A stretch of 64,000 bases of DNA from a bacterium. Lineage in GTDB: Bacteria; UBA10199; JAIBAG01. Under the pieces are notes generated by a model that saw only the letters and a program-made list of their open reading frames with translations, did not search any database and was not told where the DNA came from. Positions 3,597 through 54,582 of the stretch are shown in pieces. A program made the translations under genes and the position numbers. The DNA is taken from positions 62,001 through 126,000 of the forward strand of contig JAIBAG010000003.1 of assembly GCA_019695305.1 (NCBI GenBank), written 5' to 3'. How positions within the stretch are numbered: the first letter of the stretch is position 1; each line of letters starts with the position of its first letter.

Positions 3597-3704
3597 AAGC
3601 GGCAATATTTTCCCTCTTTCCTATAAAGCCTTCATTTTTCCCTATTTTCTTCTTAAAAAATGTAATAATATCAAAGGGATAATATTTACTCTCCAAGGGG
3701 ATGC

Positions 3705-3720
3705 TGGCACTGGGCTTGCT
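3705..3720 (+). promoter_or_regulatory. Sigma-54 (-24/-12) promoter for the SLT-TPR-activator unit
   Basis: TGGCAC, five bases, TTGCT: a full match to the RpoN consensus with the GG and GC doublets ten bases apart. It lies 24 bases before the ATG of the lytic transglycosylase, on the correct strand. The downstream operon ends with a sigma-54 activator, so the unit may include its own activator in a feedback loop. No upstream activator site could be identified. Confidence 0.85.
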
Positions 3721-3743
3721 ATCTATAGAGGGCTGGAGGCTAT

Positions 3744-4481
3744 ATGATATCGTCAATTAAACCGCAGGTAGTTGATAAAAAAGAAGTTAATCCCAGTTTA
3801 TCGCCGGGGTCTCAAAACGTTTCCAAACAAAATCCCTATTATAATTTAATCAACAAATACATGGATACGGCCAGTAATAGTGCTTCTCCTGTTTCGGGTT
3901 TACCACACATAACAACTTTAGGTTCGGGCTTTGCTCATACAATTCGTGATTATTTAGCGGATGCGGGTCTTGTTGAACGCGAAGCGCATGCCGAGACAAA
4001 ACAGGCAGAGTCTGTTGCACCTAAGGTTGAGGCGCAAACCAACGCTATTCGTACACCTGCCGAGCATGCCAATCGTCATCCTATGCCAAAACTTGATAAC
4101 ATTTCGCCCGAAATTAAACAGGCCATTGAAGAGGCTGCTGATAAGTACGATGTTTCCAAAAAATTAATAGCCGCTGTTATTAAACAAGAATCTAATTTTA
4201 ATCCTAAGGCACGCTCAGCTGTTGGAGCTCAGGGGTTAATGCAACTGATGCCTGGAACCGCTCGTGATCTAGGTGTTAAAAATGCATATAATATCCGTGA
4301 TAATATCGATGGAGGCGTGCGGTATTTAAAAAGTATGATGGATAAGTTTGGTGATGTTAAAAAAGCTTTAGCTGCTTACAATGCCGGACCTGGAGCGGTT
4401 CAAAAATATCAGGGAATTCCACCCTATAAAGAGACAATGGCATATGTTTCAAAAATAATGGATAATTACAAAAAAGTATAA
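3744..4481 (+). CDS. SLT-type lytic transglycosylase, probably flagellar
   Basis: Cleaves peptidoglycan glycan strands. A 245-residue protein: an N-terminal region of about 120 residues of no recognised fold, then a transglycosylase SLT domain (about 122-243). The SLT domain has catalytic Glu149 in [13 protein letters not shown], then GLMQLMP (164-170) and the [10 protein letters not shown] motif (210-219). No Sec signal peptide or lipobox is visible at the N-terminus ([17 protein letters not shown]). This is odd for a periplasmic hydrolase and could mean export through the flagellar apparatus, as FlgJ uses. GGAGG four bases before ATG 3744 fixes the start. It heads a sigma-54 operon inside the flagellar cluster, where FlgJ (18.1 kb) lacks a hydrolase domain. 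A role in passing the rod through the wall is inferred. Confidence 0.88.
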
Positions 4482-4484
4482 TTC

Positions 4485-6767
4485 ATGGCGCAATTTTTTA
4501 AACAAATATTGATGGCGGTGGTGTTGGGGTTTACCCTGGTGTATTCTGCTTGGGCAACCGACGCGGTAGTGCCCGCAGCTTCACCCGAAAAACCTGCTGC
4601 CGAATCTCCAAAAAAACTAGAGCCAGCAAAGGAAGCTACTCCATCACCTCCGCCTGTAGTGCCACCATCCGACCCTATTGCTAAAAAAAATGCGTTAAGA
4701 GACATGGCCGATTTGATTGATTTGGTTTCTCCCTCGCATGAGCCATATCTAGAGGTATATTTGCCTAAAGTACCCGAAATTTTGGTGATTCATAAAGCGA
4801 TCTATCCTTGGGAAGAAATGGGCTATCCCCAAATTAAGGATTGGGATTTTAATGCTAAAGAAATAAAAATTCACGAATATCACGATGTGATTGCTTTGCT
4901 TAAAAAGGATTTAGCAAACAAAGATACGCTTTTAAGAATGGAAAAAGAGTATCTTTTAGCCGATTTACTTTTAGTGACTGGGTTAAAGGATCGCAAAAAG
5001 GATTTGAATGATTCCTACAAGGCATATCAAGCAGCATTGGCTGATTATCCACGTTCATCCTATGGCTTGGCCGCTAGTTATCATATAGGTCTTATTCTAC
5101 TTAATTTACACCAGTACACCGATCTGATTGCGCTTTCTCGGCGTCAGGAAACCTTATGGTCTTCCGATGATTACTGGGCCAGTATGTTTCGTTCGCTGGT
5201 ACTTGAGTCGTATTATCAGCGTGGGCGTTATTTGCGTTTAGAAGATTATATTTGGGAGTTAGCTTCAAAAATTAACAAAGATGAACTTAAATCTCATTAT
5301 GCGCGCCGGTATGCCGATGCTCTTTTTTGGCAAAAAAAATATACCGATGTTGTGGAATGGTACAAAAACGATAGTGTTCGTACGTTTTTAAATGATGCTA
5401 ACGATTCGGCTCGGGCTTCGCGTTTGTATTATGCTGAATCGCTGTATCAAATTGGACGCTTTGTAGATGCCAAAAATGAATTTTTAGCCTTCCAAAGCTC
5501 GTTTGAAGGGGATTATCAAAAAAGCGTTATCATTTATCGTTTGTATCAGTGTGTGTTGATGGAAAAAAAGGATTTGGATACTTCCATGGAGGATTTTTAC
5601 CGTTTCTTTTTACGTGATGATCATCCCGTTATTAAAAATATGGCCCAAATCCAGTGGGCACGCCTTGTAGCCAAGCTTGATAATTCTCGTTTACATATGA
5701 ATGCGCACGTCTATATGGATGGGCTACTAGCTAAAGAAAAATCTGGAAGTATTCGTAAAGAAATTCATTATGTAAAATCTCTCTTAGAATGGCGACTTAA
5801 CGATCCAGCTCAAGCCTTTCAAACAATTGTTCGTGTAATCCCACGTTACTTCTTTCACGAAACAGCCGATGAACTTACAAAATCGGCCAGCGATATTGCT
5901 GTACAACTTTTATTAAACCAGGCTCCACATTATTGGGATAAAAAAGATTATGTAGGTTTTTTGGTGCAGTGCGATAGGTTGAGTACGTCCATTCAAGTAT
6001 CAAGTCTTAAAGAAGATATTTTGATGTGGGTTGGGCGTGCTTATGTAGAAAGTGGTATGGTGCCTTCTGGCGCTCGTTTATTTGAACGTCTTTTGTTTGA
6101 AATGGATGAATCTAAAAAAGGACGGTTGGCTCTGGAATTGGCACGTGCCTATGGTATTATGGGCGATACCGACTTTATGGGGCAGGCTCTCGATATGGTA
6201 AAGGCTGTTCCTTCCGATCCTCAAGAAAAAATTTTGTATTATTTAACTTGGGCTATTTACGATTTAGCTAAAGAACGTTACACCGATTGTGTACAGCAGT
6301 TTGATTCTTTGTTGCAGCAAGGTGTAACTGGTAGTGAGTTGTTTAATTATAGTTTGCAGGGTGCGCAGTGTGCGCGTAAGGGCAAAATGTATGACCAGGC
6401 TTTAAAATTTATTAGTCTTTTGGGTGCTAAAGATGATACGATTCCACAAAATTTACCACCAGAAATTATGCGTTGGTACGAAGAAGGTTTGTTTGAAAAA
6501 ATAAATATTTATGTTGAAAAGGGAGATACAGATAAAGCATTAAAATTGTTTGAAACCATGAAAAGTGCTTTTAACCAGTTTGACCCACCGGTGGAGACTA
6601 TATTTTTAATAGTTGATGCTTATCGCAAGGAGCATCAACCTGATATGGCGGCTTCGATATGGAAAACATACACCGAAGATTCTCCTACAATTCCAAAAAA
6701 GTTTAGCGAGCAATATGCCGAATTGTTGGAGATGTTGAGCCGGGTGGAACTGTTGCCGGGTGAATAG
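4485..6767 (+). CDS. Large periplasmic helical-repeat (TPR-like) protein
   Basis: A 760-residue exported protein of unknown function. It has a Sec signal peptide (hydrophobic core LMAVVLGFTLVYSAWA, cleavage near residue 24), a Pro/Ala/Lys-rich linker (about 27-66), then about 690 residues of helical, TPR-like character. Examples of repeat-like helices are SSYGLAASYHIGLILL, ARRYADALFWQKKYTDVVEW and ARLYYAESLYQIGRFVDAKN-type segments. Repeat boundaries were not assigned. The gene starts three bases after the SLT stop and is followed by the sigma-54 activator, so all three are likely one transcript. An envelope scaffold linked to flagellar assembly or wall remodelling is suggested by context only. 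It could instead resemble the TPR-rich N-terminus of soluble transglycosylases, but no SLT domain is present. Confidence 0.8.
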   Translation: MAQFFKQILMAVVLGFTLVYSAWATDAVVPAASPEKPAAESPKKLEPAKEATPSPPPVVPPSDPIAKKNALRDMADLIDLVSPSHEPYLEVYLPKVPEILVIHKAIYPWEEMGYPQIKDWDFNAKEIKIHEYHDVIALLKKDLANKDTLLRMEKEYLLADLLLVTGLKDRKKDLNDSYKAYQAALADYPRSSYGLAASYHIGLILLNLHQYTDLIALSRRQETLWSSDDYWASMFRSLVLESYYQRGRYLRLEDYIWELASKINKDELKSHYARRYADALFWQKKYTDVVEWYKNDSVRTFLNDANDSARASRLYYAESLYQIGRFVDAKNEFLAFQSSFEGDYQKSVIIYRLYQCVLMEKKDLDTSMEDFYRFFLRDDHPVIKNMAQIQWARLVAKLDNSRLHMNAHVYMDGLLAKEKSGSIRKEIHYVKSLLEWRLNDPAQAFQTIVRVIPRYFFHETADELTKSASDIAVQLLLNQAPHYWDKKDYVGFLVQCDRLSTSIQVSSLKEDILMWVGRAYVESGMVPSGARLFERLLFEMDESKKGRLALELARAYGIMGDTDFMGQALDMVKAVPSDPQEKILYYLTWAIYDLAKERYTDCVQQFDSLLQQGVTGSELFNYSLQGAQCARKGKMYDQALKFISLLGAKDDTIPQNLPPEIMRWYEEGLFEKINIYVEKGDTDKALKLFETMKSAFNQFDPPVETIFLIVDAYRKEHQPDMAASIWKTYTEDSPTIPKKFSEQYAELLEMLSRVELLPGE

Positions 6768-13703: not shown

Positions 13704-13719
13704 TGGCATCCTGATTGCT
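13704..13719 (+). promoter_or_regulatory. Sigma-54 promoter for flgF operon
   Basis: TGGCAT, five bases, TTGCT, with GG and GC ten bases apart, 24 bases before the flgF start. The remainder of the 223-base gap to the divergent IscA-family gene shows no other feature. It would be served by the FlrC-like activator at 6.8 kb. Confidence 0.82.
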
Positions 13720-13742
13720 GTTTAAGGCCATGAGGAGAAGTT

Positions 13743-14462
13743 ATGCCATCAGGTGTTTATTTAACAATGCAAGCCATGAAGCTCAAGTTAGAAGAGCTTG
13801 ATAATTTGGCACACAACCTAGCCAACGTGAATACGGATGGCTTTAAGGAAGAGAACGTCAATTTTGAATCGGTGCTTACTAATGCTGAAGGTGGTGATGG
13901 GCAAAAGGAAAATACAGCTGTGGCTTTTAAGTCTATTAATTTTGCACAAGGTCCCATTGTCACAACAGGCGATGAAATGAATGTGGCGCTTCAGGGTCCT
14001 GGTTTTTTTGAAGTTCAAACCGAAACGGGCAATTTTTATACGCGTGACGGTGTTTTTGGAATTAATGCAAGCGGTGAGTTGGTAGATACCAAAGGTGGAA
14101 AGGTAATGGGGGAAAGCGGCAGTATTGTTCCAGGTAATGGCAGAATAGAAATTAGCCCCAGTGGTGTGGTGATGGTGGATGGGGAAGAAAAAGGAAAAAT
14201 TAAAATGGTTGAGTTTGGTGATTTGGGACAGGTTAAATCGGTAGGGAGTTCGCGCTTTAAAGCCAGTGACCAAGCTAGCCCTCAAGTAGCCAAGCACAGT
14301 GAGCTATTACAAGGAAAAGTAGAACAATCGAACACGAGTACGGTTGGAAATTTGGTGAAACTGGTTGAAGTAACTCGTCAGTATGAAACATACCAGAAGA
14401 TTTTAAGTCAGCAATCGAAGATGGATGAAGAATCGGCAAATTCATTAGGACGATTAACGTAA
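13743..14462 (+). CDS. flgF: Flagellar proximal rod protein FlgF
   Basis: Rod subunit of 239 residues, exported by the flagellar type III system. The N-terminal rod motif is LDNLAHNLANVNTDGFKEEN, and the C-terminal helix is VKLVEVTRQYETYQKILSQQ. A central FlgE/F/G domain is also present. It is shorter than FlgG and precedes it by 16 bases. GAGGAGAAG lies just before ATG 13743. First gene of a sigma-54 unit flgF-flgG-flgA-flgH-flgI-flgJ; hook gene flgE and flgB/C are not in the window. Confidence 0.93.
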   Translation: MPSGVYLTMQAMKLKLEELDNLAHNLANVNTDGFKEENVNFESVLTNAEGGDGQKENTAVAFKSINFAQGPIVTTGDEMNVALQGPGFFEVQTETGNFYTRDGVFGINASGELVDTKGGKVMGESGSIVPGNGRIEISPSGVVMVDGEEKGKIKMVEFGDLGQVKSVGSSRFKASDQASPQVAKHSELLQGKVEQSNTSTVGNLVKLVEVTRQYETYQKILSQQSKMDEESANSLGRLT

Positions 14463-18486: not shown

Positions 18487-18513
18487 TTAAGTTTTTCTGT
18501 AATCTTCCGTACA
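18487..18513 (+). promoter_or_regulatory. FliA-type promoter for flgM operon
   Basis: TTAA (18487-18490), 15 bases, then TCCGTACA (18506-18513). It shares the AAGTTTT stretch and CCGT core with the fliC site. It lies in the 71-base gap between flgJ and flgM and starts about 30 bases before flgM. It would place the anti-sigma factor FlgM under its own target, as in other flagellar cascades. Confidence 0.55.
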
Positions 18514-18542: not shown

Positions 18543-18848
18543 ATGAAGATCATACCACAAGAAATAAGTCCTGCGGGCGTACAAGCTCGTAAGACTTCAA
18601 AAGCTCAAGGTTCTAAAACCGCCAATTCTCAATCGGGAGAGAAAGCTTCGGCGGGAGAAGGGGATAGTGTAGACATCTCCTCCACCGGAAGCCAACTCAA
18701 ATCGTTGGGGGCCCAGTTAAAACAGGTCCCTGACATCCGGACTGAACGTGTCCAGAGTCTTAAGGCGGAAGTAGAATCGGGTCAATACAACCCTCCTGCA
18801 GATCAGGTTGCCCAAGCGCTTATAGACACTGTACGTCTGTTCGGCTGA
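18543..18848 (+). CDS. flgM: Anti-sigma-28 factor FlgM
   Basis: Binds and holds FliA until the hook is complete, then is exported. A 101-residue protein of typical size. The N-terminal half is disordered (Ser/Lys/Gly-rich) and the C-terminal FliA-binding part is RVQSLKAEVESGQYNPPADQ then VAQALIDTVRLF. VDISSTGSQL is also typical of the family. flgN follows 12 bases later. Confidence 0.92.
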   Translation: MKIIPQEISPAGVQARKTSKAQGSKTANSQSGEKASAGEGDSVDISSTGSQLKSLGAQLKQVPDIRTERVQSLKAEVESGQYNPPADQVAQALIDTVRLFG

Positions 18849-21179: not shown

Positions 21180-22457
21180 ATGTCAGTTAATCGTGTTACA
21201 TTTAGTTCGCAGCAACTTGTTATTCGAGATAACTTATCACGTGTACAGCGGCAATATGAAGAGGCTAGTGTCCCGGCTACCACGGGCAAGCGCATCAATT
21301 CACTTTCAGACGATCCTTCGGTTTCTTCCCGTCTTTTATTAACGCGTCGTAATGTGGCAAGTAATGAACAGTTTCAAAAAAATATCACCAGTGCTCGTTT
21401 ACGTTTTAACGAAACAGATTCGGCTTTAGGTACAGCGGGTGATATTTTGCAAAAAATACGTGACCTGGTACTAGATGGTAATAATGCTACCATTTCTAGT
21501 GGTGCTCTTAGTCTTATTTCCGATCAGCTTCAAGCCCTCAAAGACGATTTGGTAGGTGAGGCCAATTCACAAGTTGATGGCAAATACATTTTTTCTGGTA
21601 CAGCTACCGCGACTCAACCTTTTACAGGAAGTCCTGGTATTTTTAACGGCAATAGCAATTCATTAGCATTGTATGTTAATGAAACTCAAACAACTGATTT
21701 GTCGCTAGACGGTAATGAAATTTTTACAGGCTCGGTTGCAACGGCAACGGGCTCATCTTTACTCACAACTTTAAAAGACAGTTCTGGAAACAGTTTTAAG
21801 CTTGAAGCTGGAGATAGCATTAGTTTTGCGGCTACAATTGGTGCAGGAACTGTGAATACAACTTACACTGTAACAGCCAACAGTACGCTTACGGATGTGG
21901 CAACTTCTCTTCAAACCGCGTTACGAGCTGCTGGAGATGGCACTGAAGTAGTAACCGTAACTGCCGGTGGTGCCTTAAGGGTTACCGCAGGAGCTACAGC
22001 TATTACGGGTTTAGAATTAAGTGTTTCCGGGAATACCGATTTTAATACAGCTTTTACTTATTCATCGCCCATTGCACCATCAGCATCGGCCAATTCGGAT
22101 ACGCTAAAAAGCGGGAGTGGTATTGATATTTTTGAAACCATCGACAAGCTTATTGAAGGCTTGACGAATCGTGATTCGACCCAGGTAGGTGTGTATTTAG
22201 ACGATTTGGATACAGGTATTAACCAGGTATTAAACGGTCGGGCAGCGGTTGGTTTGCGTCAGCAGCGCTTGGATATTATTGAAGCTACAGTAAATGATGC
22301 GTCGGTTCGTTTGATAGCGTCATTGTCGGATATTGAGGATGCTGATTTGGATAAATCTCTTAGTGATCTGGTAACGCGTGAAACGGCTTTAAGGCTAGTA
22401 TTTTCGAGTGCGTCGCGTATTTTGTCGACGGTAAGCGGAATTCAGTTGAATACCTAA
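21180..22457 (+). CDS. flgL: Hook-filament junction protein FlgL (HAP3)
   Basis: Second junction protein, 425 residues, longer than enteric FlgL (about 317). The flagellin-like N-terminus (QRQYEEASVPATTGKRINSL then SDDPSVSSRLL) and C-terminal coiled coil (LSDIEDADLDKSLSDLVTRE) identify it. The extra length is mostly an inserted domain at about residues 195-307 that resembles one in FlgK (QTALRAAGDGTE, VTAGATAITGL, FTYSSPIA). AGAAAGGA precedes ATG 21180. It converges with the E/K-rich gene three bases on. Confidence 0.93.
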   Translation: MSVNRVTFSSQQLVIRDNLSRVQRQYEEASVPATTGKRINSLSDDPSVSSRLLLTRRNVASNEQFQKNITSARLRFNETDSALGTAGDILQKIRDLVLDGNNATISSGALSLISDQLQALKDDLVGEANSQVDGKYIFSGTATATQPFTGSPGIFNGNSNSLALYVNETQTTDLSLDGNEIFTGSVATATGSSLLTTLKDSSGNSFKLEAGDSISFAATIGAGTVNTTYTVTANSTLTDVATSLQTALRAAGDGTEVVTVTAGGALRVTAGATAITGLELSVSGNTDFNTAFTYSSPIAPSASANSDTLKSGSGIDIFETIDKLIEGLTNRDSTQVGVYLDDLDTGINQVLNGRAAVGLRQQRLDIIEATVNDASVRLIASLSDIEDADLDKSLSDLVTRETALRLVFSSASRILSTVSGIQLNT

Positions 22458-22460
22458 ATA

Positions 22461-23750
22461 CTAAAAGATGAGCTGCGAAACAGCTTCAGGTGTGATGCGT
22501 TGTTGTGCTTTTCTAAAGTTTTGGGCTGGAATACCATCGGTTATTTCTTCTAAAATCTTTTTTACTTCCTCAAAACGTTCCACTTTTTTAACTTGTATTT
22601 GAGGGGTTGAAGCTTTGGTGTTATTTTTAAGTGAATGTTCGTAGTAAGCTTTCATTTCTTTTAACGAGCTGCGTGTCTCTTGAATGTCTTGTAGTGTTTT
22701 GTCGAAATAATTGAGTAGTTTCCCACTTACCTCCGACTCAAGAGATGATGCCGGTGTTTGAGCTATTACATTTGCCAGTTCGTGTGACTGTTGATTGACT
22801 TTGTGTGAGAGATCGTCCACTTTTTCGAGGTCAAATTCCACACGGGTTAATGCTGGAAGAGGAGTTGTTGGGGTACTATCTTCCTGGTTTTGTAAGTTAA
22901 GACGTAAGCTTTCAACTAAATCGCCTAATGATACGTTTTTTTCATGGTTACTTTTTTTTGTAACTTTAGATGGATTTTCGTCGGTTGTGGGAGGCGCTTC
23001 ATCGTTTTTCTTTAATTCGGTGTTTTCTTCTATAGCAGCGGCATTTTTCGCATCTTCTTTCTCTTTAATATTTGCTGCACGGGTGTCTTCGGCGCTAATT
23101 TCATTTTGCTTGGCTGCTACATCGTGACTTTCATCTTTTTCCGTTTTTGGATGAGAATGAGTATCTTTTTCGGCAAATTCTGTTTTTTTACGAGAGAGCT
23201 TTTCTTTTTTAAAGTTTTCTTTTGCGTATTCAGATGCAGCAAAAAGATCGTCGGCTTTATGGTGATGCTCTTTTGATTTTTCAGAATCCTCAAAGGATAC
23301 TTTAGTGTATTTGGATGAGTCAAAAAGGTCGTCGGCTTCATGGTGATACTCCTTTGGTTTGCCAGACGTTTCAATGTGAATTTTTTCGGCTTCTTTTTTA
23401 TAGGTATCAAATTTTTGAATAAATTCCTGCTTTTGGACTTCTTTTTTTTCGGGAGCCTTTTCGGCTGCTGCTTTTTTAAAACGTTCAATAACGTCCTCCG
23501 ATTTATTCAGCTTTTCTTCCACTTTTTCAGTTTTTTCCATCACCTCCGATACCCGTACTTCAAAGTCGGTTTGGTGTTTGAGGGGAGTTTCTTCTTTTTT
23601 AAGCGAAATTTGGGTGCTTTGTGAATTGACTTCCGGTACACGGGTAGGAGATGGGCTTTTAAGCTCCGTTTTTTTCATTTCCCCTGTATAAACAGGCGCT
23701 GTATCGCGTGTAACCGATCCCAACTTATTATAGCTTAAAAATTCATTCAT
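22461..23750 (-). CDS. E/K-rich coiled-coil protein under FliA-type control
   Basis: Unrecognised protein of 429 residues. The start is set at ATG 23750, which has GGAG nine bases upstream and a FliA-type promoter just before it; a longer in-frame opening to 23831 would begin upstream of that promoter. Residues about 30-270 are highly charged and probably disordered or helical, with an imperfect repeat (KE-HH-ADDLF-S-Y-K-F, two copies). The C-terminal 140 residues are less charged and coiled-coil-like (LPALTRVEFDLEKVDDLSHK, LNYFDKTLQDIQETRSSLKE). No signal peptide or membrane segment is seen. It lies between flgL and motA on the opposite strand. A secreted or cytoplasmic flagellar accessory role is possible; FliK-like hook-length control was considered but no FliK C-terminal motif is seen. 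Confidence 0.7.
   Translation of the reverse strand: MNEFLSYNKLGSVTRDTAPVYTGEMKKTELKSPSPTRVPEVNSQSTQISLKKEETPLKHQTDFEVRVSEVMEKTEKVEEKLNKSEDVIERFKKAAAEKAPEKKEVQKQEFIQKFDTYKKEAEKIHIETSGKPKEYHHEADDLFDSSKYTKVSFEDSEKSKEHHHKADDLFAASEYAKENFKKEKLSRKKTEFAEKDTHSHPKTEKDESHDVAAKQNEISAEDTRAANIKEKEDAKNAAAIEENTELKKNDEAPPTTDENPSKVTKKSNHEKNVSLGDLVESLRLNLQNQEDSTPTTPLPALTRVEFDLEKVDDLSHKVNQQSHELANVIAQTPASSLESEVSGKLLNYFDKTLQDIQETRSSLKEMKAYYEHSLKNNTKASTPQIQVKKVERFEEVKKILEEITDGIPAQNFRKAQQRITPEAVSQLIF
23211..23354 (-). repeat. Tandem 27-residue repeat in the E/K-rich gene
   Basis: Two copies lie at 23292-23354 and 23211-23273, with an 81-base period. The protein units are KEYHHEADDLFDSSKYTKVS and KEHHHKADDLFAASEYAKEN, each followed by F. 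Thirteen of 21 aligned positions match. The His-His-x-Ala-Asp-Asp core could bind metal, but that is a guess. Confidence 0.75.
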
Positions 23751-23770
23751 CTTAAAAGTCTCCACTAATA

Positions 23771-23797
23771 CAGACGGCAATTTCTGCCTAATCTTTA
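23771..23797 (-). promoter_or_regulatory. FliA-type promoter for the E/K-rich gene
   Basis: On the minus strand TAAA (23797-23794), 15 bases, GCCGTCTG (23778-23771). The -35 and the GCCG core match the sigma-28 consensus exactly. Transcription would start near 23764, leaving a short leader holding GGAG before ATG 23750. This is one of the two best FliA-type sites in the window. Confidence 0.7.
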
Positions 23798-23885
23798 GCT
23801 CTTTTTTTGACCAATCTTTGCCTAGCCCCATTATTAGTATAATAAGTATATGAAATTATTATGTAATTTTTTTTATCTTTTTATT

Positions 23886-23944: not shown

Positions 23945-24718
23945 ATGGATTTGGCAACAATCATTGGGCTGGTGGTAGCTTTAGGCGGGATTATCGGCGG
24001 ACTTATTGTGGAAGGGGGTAATATTATGCAAATTACCGCCCCAACAGCTGCCATGATTGTGCTTGGGGGCACCATTGGTGCCACCATGATTACCTTTCCA
24101 CTCAAAACCTTTATTACAGCGATGAAAGGTATTTCTAACTTGTTTAAGCCCAAAATGCTGGACCCCGGCACGATTATTGAAGACTTAGTTAAATATTCAG
24201 TGAAAGCCAGAAAGGATGGCATTATCTCTTTGGAAGCTGATGTTAAAGAAATCCAAGATCCCTTTCTTAAAAAGGCACTGATGATGGCCATAGATGGTGC
24301 TGATCCTAAAGAGCTGCACGAAAGTTTAGAAATGCAATTAGGTTATATGGCAGAGCACGGAGCAAAAGCCCCCAAAGTTTGGGAAGCGGCTGGTGCGTAT
24401 GCTCCCACAGTAGGTATTATCGGTGCCGTGATGGGTCTTATTCAGGTTATGGGTCACTTAGATAATATTGAAGAAGTGGGTCATGGTATTGCCGTAGCGT
24501 TTGTGGCCACAATCTACGGTTTGCTTTGTGCTAACATTATTATGTTACCTGCTGCCGGAAAACTGGCGGCTCTACATAAAAGCAATATGGTGGTTTACGA
24601 AATGGTTATTGCCGGCGTGCTTCTAGTAATAGAAGGTGTAAACCCCATGGTAATGCGCGATAAATTGGCTGCGTTTTTTGTGGATAATGTTTTAAAGGCT
24701 GAAGAAGAAAAGAAATAG
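23945..24718 (+). CDS. motA: Flagellar stator protein MotA
   Basis: Proton- or sodium-conducting stator subunit of the inner membrane, 257 residues. Four membrane segments are visible: TIIGLVVALGGIIGGLIVEG, AAMIVLGGTIGATMITFPLK, and two late segments around YAPTVGIIGAVMGLIQVMGH and FVATIYGLLCANIIMLPAAG. The cytoplasmic loop carries the charged torque region. The MDLATIIGL start and short loop look more like the PomA/MotA type of non-enteric bacteria; the coupling ion cannot be read. AGAGGT precedes ATG 23945. Confidence 0.95.
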   Translation: MDLATIIGLVVALGGIIGGLIVEGGNIMQITAPTAAMIVLGGTIGATMITFPLKTFITAMKGISNLFKPKMLDPGTIIEDLVKYSVKARKDGIISLEADVKEIQDPFLKKALMMAIDGADPKELHESLEMQLGYMAEHGAKAPKVWEAAGAYAPTVGIIGAVMGLIQVMGHLDNIEEVGHGIAVAFVATIYGLLCANIIMLPAAGKLAALHKSNMVVYEMVIAGVLLVIEGVNPMVMRDKLAAFFVDNVLKAEEEKK

Positions 24719-24727
24719 GGGGCCTAG

Positions 24728-25567
24728 GTGTCTAAGAAAAAAGCGCATGCCGAAGAACATGTTAACCACGAACGTTGGCTGGTATCCTACGCCGATTTCA
24801 TCACTCTTTTGTTTGCTTTCTTTGTTGTTCTTTTTTCATCTGCACAGGTTGATTCATCTAAATCTCAGGCTATGTCGGTAGCAATGGAGCGAGCCTTTGA
24901 ACGTTTTTCAATTTTTAAATACGTCTCCGGCGATGAAATAGGTCAATCCAATTCAGGGAGTGCAGCGGGCAATACTAAAAAATATCGTGATTATCTGATG
25001 CGCAACGAAGAAGGCGTTCCTATCATGGTTCCTTCCATAGTGAGTGATGTGGATGTAATGCCCAAAGGTTTGGATGATTCACAAGATGAAAAGTCTTTAA
25101 GTGACGATCAAAGTAAAAAAATGGCTGAGCTCGAAAAGCTAAGCCAGGTTCAAATGCAAATTATGGATATACTGGGCAAAAATGATGAGAAAAAAATGGA
25201 AGTTAAAAGAGAAGCTCGTGGTGTGGTGATAAGTCTTAAAGAAGCCGCGTTATTTCAGGCAAATTCAACTGAGATTAGCCCCGATATGCTCCCTTTTTTA
25301 ACGGGAATTAGCTATATTTTGTCGGGTGTTCCCAATTTTGTGCGTGTGGAGGGATATTCTGGCGCTTCTAATATTCAAGAGGCTTGGTCAATTTCGGCTA
25401 AAAGAAGCGGAAGGGTTATTGAGTGGCTTTCTACTACTGGTAAACTAGATGCCAAACGATTTGTATCTATTGCTTACGGGAATCAAAGAAGCAGGCATCT
25501 TGAGGCAGAAAATGACGATCGTGTAGATATTGTGTTGATGTCACGTGAAAACGAAAAATATAGGTAA
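24728..25567 (+). CDS. motB: Flagellar stator protein MotB, copy 1
   Basis: Anchors the stator to peptidoglycan, 279 residues, starting at GTG 24728 with an AGGGGG site six bases ahead. One N-terminal membrane helix with the ion-binding Asp23 (SYADFITLLFAFFVVLFSS). The OmpA-like C-terminal domain (about 155-275) has SLKEAALFQANSTEISPDML and VEGYSGASNIQEAWSISAKR. The usual G-H-T-D element reads GYSG, so wall binding may differ from E. coli MotB. Its first 38 residues are identical to those of the next gene. Confidence 0.93.
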   Translation: MSKKKAHAEEHVNHERWLVSYADFITLLFAFFVVLFSSAQVDSSKSQAMSVAMERAFERFSIFKYVSGDEIGQSNSGSAAGNTKKYRDYLMRNEEGVPIMVPSIVSDVDVMPKGLDDSQDEKSLSDDQSKKMAELEKLSQVQMQIMDILGKNDEKKMEVKREARGVVISLKEAALFQANSTEISPDMLPFLTGISYILSGVPNFVRVEGYSGASNIQEAWSISAKRSGRVIEWLSTTGKLDAKRFVSIAYGNQRSRHLEAENDDRVDIVLMSRENEKYR

Positions 25568-25570
25568 TAT

Positions 25571-26566
25571 ATGTCGAAGAAAAAAGCACATGCCGAAGAG
25601 CACGTGAACCACGAACGTTGGTTAGTTTCGTATGCCGACTTTATTACTCTTTTGTTTGCGTTTTTTGTGGTGTTATTTTCATCGTCGGCTGTAGAGCACA
25701 GTAAAACCAACAAATCGGGTTTGGCCATTGAAGCTGCCTTCGATTCATTTTCAATTTTTAAAGAGCCTTCGGGAGACTCATTTGAACCTTCCGATAAAGG
25801 TGGTGCTGGTGGTAATGCGCAAAGAAACCGTGAAGTATTGGTGGTAAGTGATAATGAAAGTTCCCGCATTGCTCCTGCACAGGTAAATCCTAAGGAAACC
25901 AGCGAAAAAATTATTCCAAAAGGTGATCCGGCACTTAATCAAAACACGGGTTTTTTAACCCCACCCGATGATATTGTAAGTGACAAGCACAAAGAGCTTT
26001 TGGAACTTATAGATGCGCGCAAATGGAATCAAGTTATTGCAGCCACTATTGATGATAGGGGACTTGTGATTACCGTAGATGATTCGATTATTTTTGAACC
26101 GGGAACTATCCAGTTAACATCGGCATCACGTGATTTTTTGGAGAGTTTAGGAAAACTTTTAAAAGATATTCCTAACCAGGTGAAAGTAGAAGGCTATATA
26201 GATGAGGCGGGAAAAATTTCTTCTCCTCTCGATTTATCAATGGAACGAGCTTTGTTTGTTATTCAATGGCTATCAACACACTATTCTATTAACGGAGGAC
26301 GTTTTATTGCGAGTAGTTTTGTGTCTGCAGAGGAAGCACATAAAAACCAGATTGAGATTATTGTTTTGTCTAAGGATGCCGAAGCTATAGAGGCTCCTGT
26401 AACTAGAAATGTGGCCAAAGATGTGAAACAGAACCAACCTGTTAATGTGCCAACTAACCTGGAAAAACATCCCTTGGTTAATTTTAAACAAGAAGTAGAG
26501 GATGATAATATTAACAAAGACAGGGAAAGAAATAATTACAACTACGTTCCTCCTGTTAAGTTTTAA
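25571..26566 (+). CDS. Second MotB-like stator protein
   Basis: A 331-residue MotB paralogue in tandem with motB, three bases on. Residues 1-38 are identical to copy 1, including Asp23 and the membrane helix, but the rest is strongly diverged. The OmpA-like part (about 155-265) has DSIIFEPGTIQLTSASRDFL and VEGYIDEAGKISSPLDLSME. A unique charged tail of about 60 residues (about 270-331, Asn/Asp/Lys-rich) follows. It could form a mixed stator or a second stator with the single MotA. Its stop overlaps the convergent PIG-L gene by four bases. Confidence 0.88.
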   Translation: MSKKKAHAEEHVNHERWLVSYADFITLLFAFFVVLFSSSAVEHSKTNKSGLAIEAAFDSFSIFKEPSGDSFEPSDKGGAGGNAQRNREVLVVSDNESSRIAPAQVNPKETSEKIIPKGDPALNQNTGFLTPPDDIVSDKHKELLELIDARKWNQVIAATIDDRGLVITVDDSIIFEPGTIQLTSASRDFLESLGKLLKDIPNQVKVEGYIDEAGKISSPLDLSMERALFVIQWLSTHYSINGGRFIASSFVSAEEAHKNQIEIIVLSKDAEAIEAPVTRNVAKDVKQNQPVNVPTNLEKHPLVNFKQEVEDDNINKDRERNNYNYVPPVKF

Positions 26567-52734: not shown

Positions 52735-54582
52735 ATGACCAAACTATTCGAAAAAAATAAAAAGCTTTTAGCGCGCTATTACCCTCAACTTTTTAAAAGA
52801 ATAATAGAAGAGATTAATCGTGATGATCTTTTTTCTCTCTTATCTGATTATAAAGAATTATATCAGCCCAACCTTAAAGCTTGTGCCCAACAGTCTATAA
52901 AAGAAGCGAATATCAAAAGACCTAAAATTATTCTTTTGTATGGGAGCGGCCTTGGCGTTTGTTTAACAGAATTATTAAAAAAAATAGAAGGTGAAACGCG
53001 CCATATTTTAGTAATCGAAAAATCACTCTCTCGTTTTTGCGCTTCTTTAGCGCTAATAAATTATGAAAAAATTTTTAAGGATAAGCGCATCCGTTTTTTA
53101 GTGGGGGCCAACGAGAATCTTGATTTTGTTGATTTTTTTATTCCATTAGTACGCTCGTCTGAAAGTGTTTATTTAAAATCGATGGCCGTGGTACTTGATC
53201 CGGTTTTAACTACTGAAGACGAAGAATATTACGAAAGAGTAGCTCAGTCTTTTTATTTGGAGGTTAAACGTAGCAGTTATTATCTTAATGTGCCCCCCGA
53301 AGATACTTACTATGGTTTTCTTAATAGCATTGCTAATTTAAAAGAGTCTCTCACTATACCCTTGTTTGACTCTTTAGTGGGTAAATTTAAAGAGACTCCC
53401 GGTATTTTGGTATCCACGGGGCCTTCTCTTGTTAAAAATTTAAAATGGCTTAAAAAAGTGCAAGATAGAGCTATTATTGCCTGTTGTGATTCTGCTTTAA
53501 AGATATTGTTAAAAAATGGAATTACACCTCACATTGTAGGTTGTTTAGAACGCGTTCCAGAAACACGTCTTTTTTTTGATGATTTACCCAAACTCCCTCA
53601 CACTTATTTTTTAACCTGTCCTATTGTGGCTCCCGATACTTTTAAGGTTTATAAGGGGCCCAAAATGCAGATGATGCGTGGGTTGGCCCAGCTCAATTGG
53701 TTTTTTCCTGAAGCTAAAAATTATTTTACCGGTAATTCGGTAAGTCACATGCTGTACATGGCTCTTTTATGCATGGGGTGCCCTACCGTTTTTTTAACGG
53801 GCCAAGATTTAGCCTACGACCGTTATTCTTCCAAAAGCCATGCTGCCGCCATGCCTAAGCTTATTGAAAATTTTAATGCTAACATGCGTAACGAAGCCAA
53901 AGAGAGAGCTATAAAGGAGGGGAGCGAGTCTTCTTTAATGGTAGAAGGCAATAACGGTGAACCTATTTTAACTGGCTACTGGCTCAATCGTTTTAGAGAA
54001 ATTTTTAACGACATGCTGCGTTCTGCTTCTTCTAAAACATACAATGTGATCCCGGTCGATTACGGCGCAAAGCTTGATTTTGTAGAGCGTCTTAACCCGG
54101 ATGAAGCTTTAAATTATATCCCGCAACATAAAAAAGATATCTCTAAAACCATTAAAAATTATTTGGTGTCGCCCCCATGGAATAAAAAATTAATGAAACA
54201 ACGCGTGCGTGTATCCATTAAATATTTGGAACACTATTTTGAGACAGCTCAAGAAGCCTTGCATAAAATAGAGGTGGTTAGGCAGTATTTGGTATTAAAA
54301 TCGGATGAGGATCCTTGCGCCGTTGCAGATTTTTTTGAGGAATTAAGCTTTTTGTTAAAGTCTATTTGTGTAGATGACGATGGTTTTTATAATACCTTTT
54401 TTGCTTGCCAAATACAGCATGTAAGCAAGCCCTTGGCTTTGCAGGCTCAGGCGGCTCTCAATAGGGTACAAGAGAAGGGGACCGAGAGTTTAGAGAAACT
54501 TAATGCGATGTATTTTTGGTTTAGTACGGTACATTTTTGGTCGTCACGTATGCTGTGGAAAATAAAGCAGGTCCAATTATAG
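52735..54582 (+). CDS. Maf/DUF115-type motility accessory factor
   Basis: A 615-residue protein of the DUF115/Maf family, linked to flagellin glycosylation with nonulosonic acids. Central MptE-like domain: GILVSTGPSLVKNLKWLKKV, CCDSALKILLKNGITPHIVG and FLTGQDLAYDRYSSKSHAAA. The C-terminal 150 residues are helical. It starts 11 bases after the CoA-transferase stop. It is over 25 kb from the flagellar genes here, which is unusual for maf; no nonulosonate genes adjoin it. Confidence 0.86.
   Translation: MTKLFEKNKKLLARYYPQLFKRIIEEINRDDLFSLLSDYKELYQPNLKACAQQSIKEANIKRPKIILLYGSGLGVCLTELLKKIEGETRHILVIEKSLSRFCASLALINYEKIFKDKRIRFLVGANENLDFVDFFIPLVRSSESVYLKSMAVVLDPVLTTEDEEYYERVAQSFYLEVKRSSYYLNVPPEDTYYGFLNSIANLKESLTIPLFDSLVGKFKETPGILVSTGPSLVKNLKWLKKVQDRAIIACCDSALKILLKNGITPHIVGCLERVPETRLFFDDLPKLPHTYFLTCPIVAPDTFKVYKGPKMQMMRGLAQLNWFFPEAKNYFTGNSVSHMLYMALLCMGCPTVFLTGQDLAYDRYSSKSHAAAMPKLIENFNANMRNEAKERAIKEGSESSLMVEGNNGEPILTGYWLNRFREIFNDMLRSASSKTYNVIPVDYGAKLDFVERLNPDEALNYIPQHKKDISKTIKNYLVSPPWNKKLMKQRVRVSIKYLEHYFETAQEALHKIEVVRQYLVLKSDEDPCAVADFFEELSFLLKSICVDDDGFYNTFFACQIQHVSKPLALQAQAALNRVQEKGTESLEKLNAMYFWFSTVHFWSSRMLWKIKQVQL

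Follow-up and report, generated by a model that had tools for sequence, protein, structure and literature searches.

Sigma-28-dependent proteins that are secreted through the flagellum and have no part in motility are known (PMC5223770, PMC8306008), and sigma-28 regulons can also include proteins without a motility role (PMC8306008). The flagellar co-expressed determinants (Feds) of Campylobacter jejuni need sigma-28 for both their production and their secretion (PMC5223770). Here we describe a gene that invites comparison with these systems. It lies in the flagellar gene cluster of a 64,000-nucleotide stretch of bacterial DNA (hereafter, the window), behind a promoter of the sigma-28 (FliA) type, and it encodes a protein (P0001) without known relatives. 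We consider this protein probably to be a lineage-specific flagellar accessory, judging from its sequence and surroundings. The relevant features of the locus are as follows.

22461 to 23750, minus strand: orphan open reading frame P0001, 429 amino acids, with its ATG at 23750 and its stop codon ending at 22461
23760 to 23763, minus strand: Shine-Dalgarno-like GGAG, 9 nt 5' of the P0001 ATG, read from the sequence
23771 to 23797, minus strand: sigma-28 (FliA)-type promoter TAAAGATT-N11-GCCGTCTG, scored with a leave-out matrix against random and shuffle controls
23199 to 23360, minus strand: two adjacent 81-nt repeat units, residues 131-184 in the phase of the HH and ADDLF motifs
22620 to 22853, minus strand: predicted helical hairpin or coiled coil, residues 300-377, of low model confidence
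21180 to 22457, plus strand: flgL-like gene (Flagellin_N and Flagellin_C domains), the convergent neighbour, which ends the flgM-flgN-flgK-flgL run
23945 to 24718, plus strand: motA, the divergent neighbour, with two motB genes behind it
18543 to 18848, plus strand: flgM, the anti-sigma-28 factor, with its own sigma-28-type promoter at 18487

The orphan frame is a real gene. Its codon-position GC (0.53/0.31/0.32) resembles that of the adjacent genes, and its synonymous-codon score is positive in the called frame, at the low end among the genes of the window. A second in-frame ATG at 23831 would extend the product to 456 amino acids. Since that codon precedes the promoter, 23750 is the better start, as originally proposed from the promoter position, and use of the longer frame is unlikely.

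The setting of this gene is flagellar on both sides. On the plus strand, the window carries fliC, flaG, two flagellar rod genes, genes resembling flgA, flgH, flgI and flgJ, then flgM, an flgN-like gene, flgK, flgL and motA-motB-motB, where genes without a domain match were named by inspecting their translations. P0001 and flgL run towards each other, their stop codons 3 bp apart (22457-22461), and the P0001 start lies 194 bp from the divergent motA. No terminator-like site was found between P0001 and flgL; because the two genes converge so closely, read-through of either sigma-28 transcript would run antisense to the other gene. In the tandem motB pair behind the single motA (24728-26566), both copies carry MotB_plug and OmpA domains and share identical first 38 residues. 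A second flagellar cluster, running from flgB-like to fliL-like genes and including FliK, occupies contig C7, with FliA encoded further along it (above the cut-off at C7:87050). The FlgM of the window was recognised by its domain (E = 2.1e-17). By eye, sigma-54-like sites precede an SLT gene at 3744 (CTGGCACTGGGCTTGCTA, 3704-3723) and a rod gene at 13743 (TGGCATCCTGATTGCTG, 13704-13720), and an NtrC-type regulator is encoded at 6760. Together these elements suggest a hierarchy of sigma-54 followed by sigma-28. Remote from the flagellar genes, at 52735-54582, is a Maf/MptE-like protein (PF01973, PF20157), likely a flagellin glycosylation enzyme.

The P0001 promoter reads in full TAAAGATT-aggcagaaatt-GCCGTCTG, and its -10 box ends 20 nt from the ATG. 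The original prediction had stressed an exact match to TAAA-N15-GCCG. The site is indeed present, but its exactness carries no weight, as the bare pattern occurs five times in the window vs 3.2 expected, which is no excess over chance. We thus relied on a 16-position motif of the clade, built from the best sigma-28-like sites upstream of fliC, flgM, motA and fliD, taken both from this genome and from three related ones, G028, G010 and G005. The scoring matrix held ten sites, with the P0001 site and its G028 counterpart both left out. Among clear sites the motif approximates T[ACT]AAG[TA]TT-N11-[GT]CCGT, or about TNAAGNTT-N11-KCCGT; the sites of this clade mostly carry CCGT, in contrast to the GCCGATA of E. 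coli, and scans with the E. coli-style motif were uninformative.

With this leave-out matrix the P0001 site scored 17.1, fifth in 144 kb of its own genome, behind the sites of fliC, a second flagellin-like gene and flgM and one opposite-strand site inside fliK. Nowhere in 2 Mb of random AT-rich sequence was this score reached; one in 300 shuffles of the gene's own 200-nt upstream region attained it. The strict consensus pattern by itself is not enough to define a regulon, because it occurs at 12 sites genome-wide vs 33 for a reversed-pattern control. The weight comes from score and place together: the site is intergenic, falls within a flagellar cluster and precedes the ATG by 20 nt. The promoter spacer is covered by a short inverted repeat (GGCAGAAATTGCC, 23776-23788) that extends into the -10 box, possibly by chance. 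Control of P0001 by FliA, as originally claimed, is thus well supported by comparative sequence, by the presence of FliA and FlgM and by a sigma-28-driven gene at the corresponding position in G028. With its late-gene-type promoter in a genome encoding both regulators, P0001 has the attributes of a class III gene, which FliA would be expected to transcribe and whose expression very probably coincides with that of the flagellar filament genes.

A similar MotA is found in only three of the 45 other genomes of the class, and the content of the flgL-motA slot varies. In G028, a 117-amino-acid protein (P0002, L012:2396-2749) is encoded between motA and a GNAT gene that is followed by flgL. Like P0001, it has the same orientation, an S/T/N/Q-rich N-terminus and a sigma-28-like promoter, TAAAGTTT-N11-ACCGTTCT, here 19 nt from the ATG. 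This promoter scored 15.6 with the leave-out matrix, and the whole G028 genome has four occurrences of its strict motif. Meanwhile, in G010 the GNAT gene is alone in the slot, and genes resembling csrA and fliW come after flgL in G005. Among Deltaproteobacterial motA loci fetched by similarity, the flgL-motA arrangement was not found, judging by their open reading frames.

Unlike P0001, the G028 protein is short, and the two are not demonstrably homologous, with no significant similarity by BLASTP (E = 4.6). At both ends the two proteins align a little better than shuffled sequences do (p about 0.04 and 0.016), and the sum of the N- and C-terminal z-scores (4.5) was reached by none of 147 control ORFs. 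We take this end similarity as a hint and not as homology, because the control ORFs were unmatched for disorder. A bolder reading, which we regard as improbable, is that the slot houses a fast-evolving sigma-28-driven family of this phylum that keeps its promoter, its place and perhaps both ends while its middle diverges until it is no longer recognisable, and that this family constitutes either a new flagellar component that is exported or a class of proteins secreted by the flagellum.

The description of P0001 as unrecognised was borne out by the homology searches. No relative was detectable in Pfam, NCBIfam, PDB, GTDB contigs, viral contigs, plasmids or 384 other genomes, a genome set drawn entirely from outside the genus and family of the source; the Pfam search gave no family up to E = 1. 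Homologues were absent among the 60 relatives searched and across the phylum. The C-terminal part, searched against 385 genomes, returned hits at per-genome E values of 0.004-0.009, about what chance gives for that many searches, and the one in G005 is a generic coiled-coil protein. A fold search with the low-confidence C-terminal model matched only generic long helices, none with E <= 0.001. Within the same genome, nothing significant emerged against FlgK, FlgL, FliD, FliC, FlgN, FliS, FliJ, FliH, MotB, a MotE-like protein or the second flagellin. Two candidate identities were rejected: P0001 lacks the Flg_hook domain (PF02120) of FliK, which this genome encodes elsewhere, and it lacks the FlgM domain, flgM being a separate gene.

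The protein itself is highly charged (60 K and 59 E among its 429 residues), as had been noted, and its tandem repeat was likewise confirmed. Two adjacent 27-residue copies are identical at 16 of 27 positions in the best phase, from residue 127, a value reached by none of 200 shuffles; at the DNA level, the phase that begins with residue 131 gives an identity of 57/81. ADDLF occurs at residues 139-143 and 166-170, preceded each time by HH, and the protein holds 14 His residues, several of them as pairs. A coiled-coil tail had also been proposed. Residues 300-331 show strong helical hydrophobic periodicity (matched by 9 of 2000 shuffles), while the hairpin formed by residues 300-331 and 334-377 is a probable feature of low confidence, coming from an AlphaFold model made without an alignment (mean pLDDT 50 over the full length, 56 over residues 270-429).

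Neither a signal peptide nor a membrane helix is apparent in the P0001 sequence. Its first 50 residues have an S/T/N/Q fraction of 0.36 and a strong-hydrophobic fraction of 0.22. Among 22 other proteins of the window, most of them cytoplasmic, these fractions are 0.21 (sd 0.07) and 0.33 (sd 0.04). The corresponding values are 0.38 and 0.12 for FlgM and 0.36 and 0.24 for FliK. The N-terminus thus matches the flagellar export substrates of its own genome in composition and appears compatible with export, with the caveat that any disordered N-terminus would show such a composition.

Based on these findings, we tentatively favour P0001 as a sigma-28-dependent, fast-evolving flagellar accessory, probably exported via the flagellar type III gate. 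Once the hook is complete and FlgM has been exported, FliA would transcribe the gene together with flagellin, flgMNKL and motAB. The product would be a soluble, lineage-specific accessory with a disordered N-terminus (residues about 1-55), a charged middle that contains the His-bearing repeat and, at the C-terminus, a helical hairpin likely to oligomerise or to bind a partner. It would most likely leave the cell through the flagellar gate, in the manner of the C. jejuni Feds, and act outside or on the growing flagellum. Support comes from a promoter ranked with those of fliC and flgM, the presence of FliA and FlgM, the position between flgL and motA, the G028 slot gene, the N-terminus, the lack of an evident signal peptide or membrane helix and the precedent of the sigma-28-dependent secreted proteins cited above; the flagellar role originally suggested is plausible given the promoter, position and N-terminus. 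Against the favoured reading stand the undemonstrable homology with the G028 protein, the failure to find an orthologue from which the parts under selection could be read, a motif no commoner than its reversed control and an N-terminal composition generic to disorder.

Possible, and less probable in our view, is an accessory that stays inside: a cytoplasmic, sigma-28-dependent coiled-coil scaffold at the basal body, the stator or the cell pole. The adjoining motA-motB-motB genes and the E/K-rich heptad helices would suit such a protein, as would weak local similarity to two proteins encoded in the same genome, the MotE-like protein and a MotB (z about 1.9 and 1.8, neither significant), but the N-terminus is closer to export substrates than to cytoplasmic proteins and P0001 carries no known scaffold domain. 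We find it doubtful that P0001 is co-regulated by FliA and has no flagellar role, for instance as a surface, stress or metal-binding protein of the motile state. The repeat His pairs might bind metal, the other flagellated members of the phylum lack P0001, and non-motility proteins occur in sigma-28 regulons elsewhere (PMC8306008); the location within a late flagellar cluster and the sigma-28-driven G028 gene at the equivalent position argue otherwise. That P0001 is no functional gene, or its promoter a chance match, is very improbable: a homologue found nowhere, the commonness of TAAA-N15-GCCG and the equally high-scoring site inside fliK would fit, but 429 open codons with gene-like codon-position GC and a Shine-Dalgarno, a promoter so close to the ATG, a tandem repeat that stays in frame and a G028 counterpart with its own promoter speak against it.

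Other genes also lie behind the clade motif. In G010, TAAAGTTT-N11-GCCGTTCT stands about 18 nt before a gene for a 389-amino-acid protein (P0003, L134:1501-2715) that has no significant Pfam match and is another candidate late-flagellar protein by its sequence context. In G028, the motif precedes a Ser-rich 70-amino-acid ORF (L126:1501-1788), also without a Pfam match. Because the motif precedes these two genes as well, clade-specific sigma-28 genes may be usual here rather than exceptional. In the source genome, a sigma-28-like motif lies about 20 nt upstream of the gene for a single-domain response regulator (PF00072; L117:1501-1947, G000:C14:34955), off the flagellar clusters. Among the best motifs of the same genome is that of a 269-amino-acid flagellin-like gene with Flagellin_N and Flagellin_C domains (G000:C1:48151-49046; L104:4151-5046), which lies outside the flagellar clusters, behind a glycine-cleavage-like gene; its product calls to mind minor flagellins that are secreted, for example Campylobacter FlaC. 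The clade FliA motif allows such genes to be searched for in a little-studied phylum, and lineage-specific sigma-28 genes are one route by which flagella gain clade-specific parts and secreted cargo.

Returning to P0001 as a putative exported accessory, three known systems offer comparison. FliK shares a disordered E/K-rich middle and an S/T/Q-rich N-terminus with P0001, but the FliK of this genome (L038:15073-16596) carries PF02120 (E = 1.2e-19), and the similarity of P0001 to it does not go beyond shuffles. FlgM, the exported anti-sigma-28 factor, resembles P0001 in its sigma-28 promoter and N-terminal composition; P0001 differs in being encoded by a separate gene, in being about four times longer and in lacking the FlgM domain. 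The Feds of C. jejuni are secreted, whereas export of P0001 is predicted, and P0001, unlike the Feds, is encoded inside the core flagellar cluster. The likeness to them is drawn as an analogy: in both cases, flagellum-associated genes that depend on sigma-28, for P0001 as judged by its promoter, encode proteins with no biochemical function assigned.
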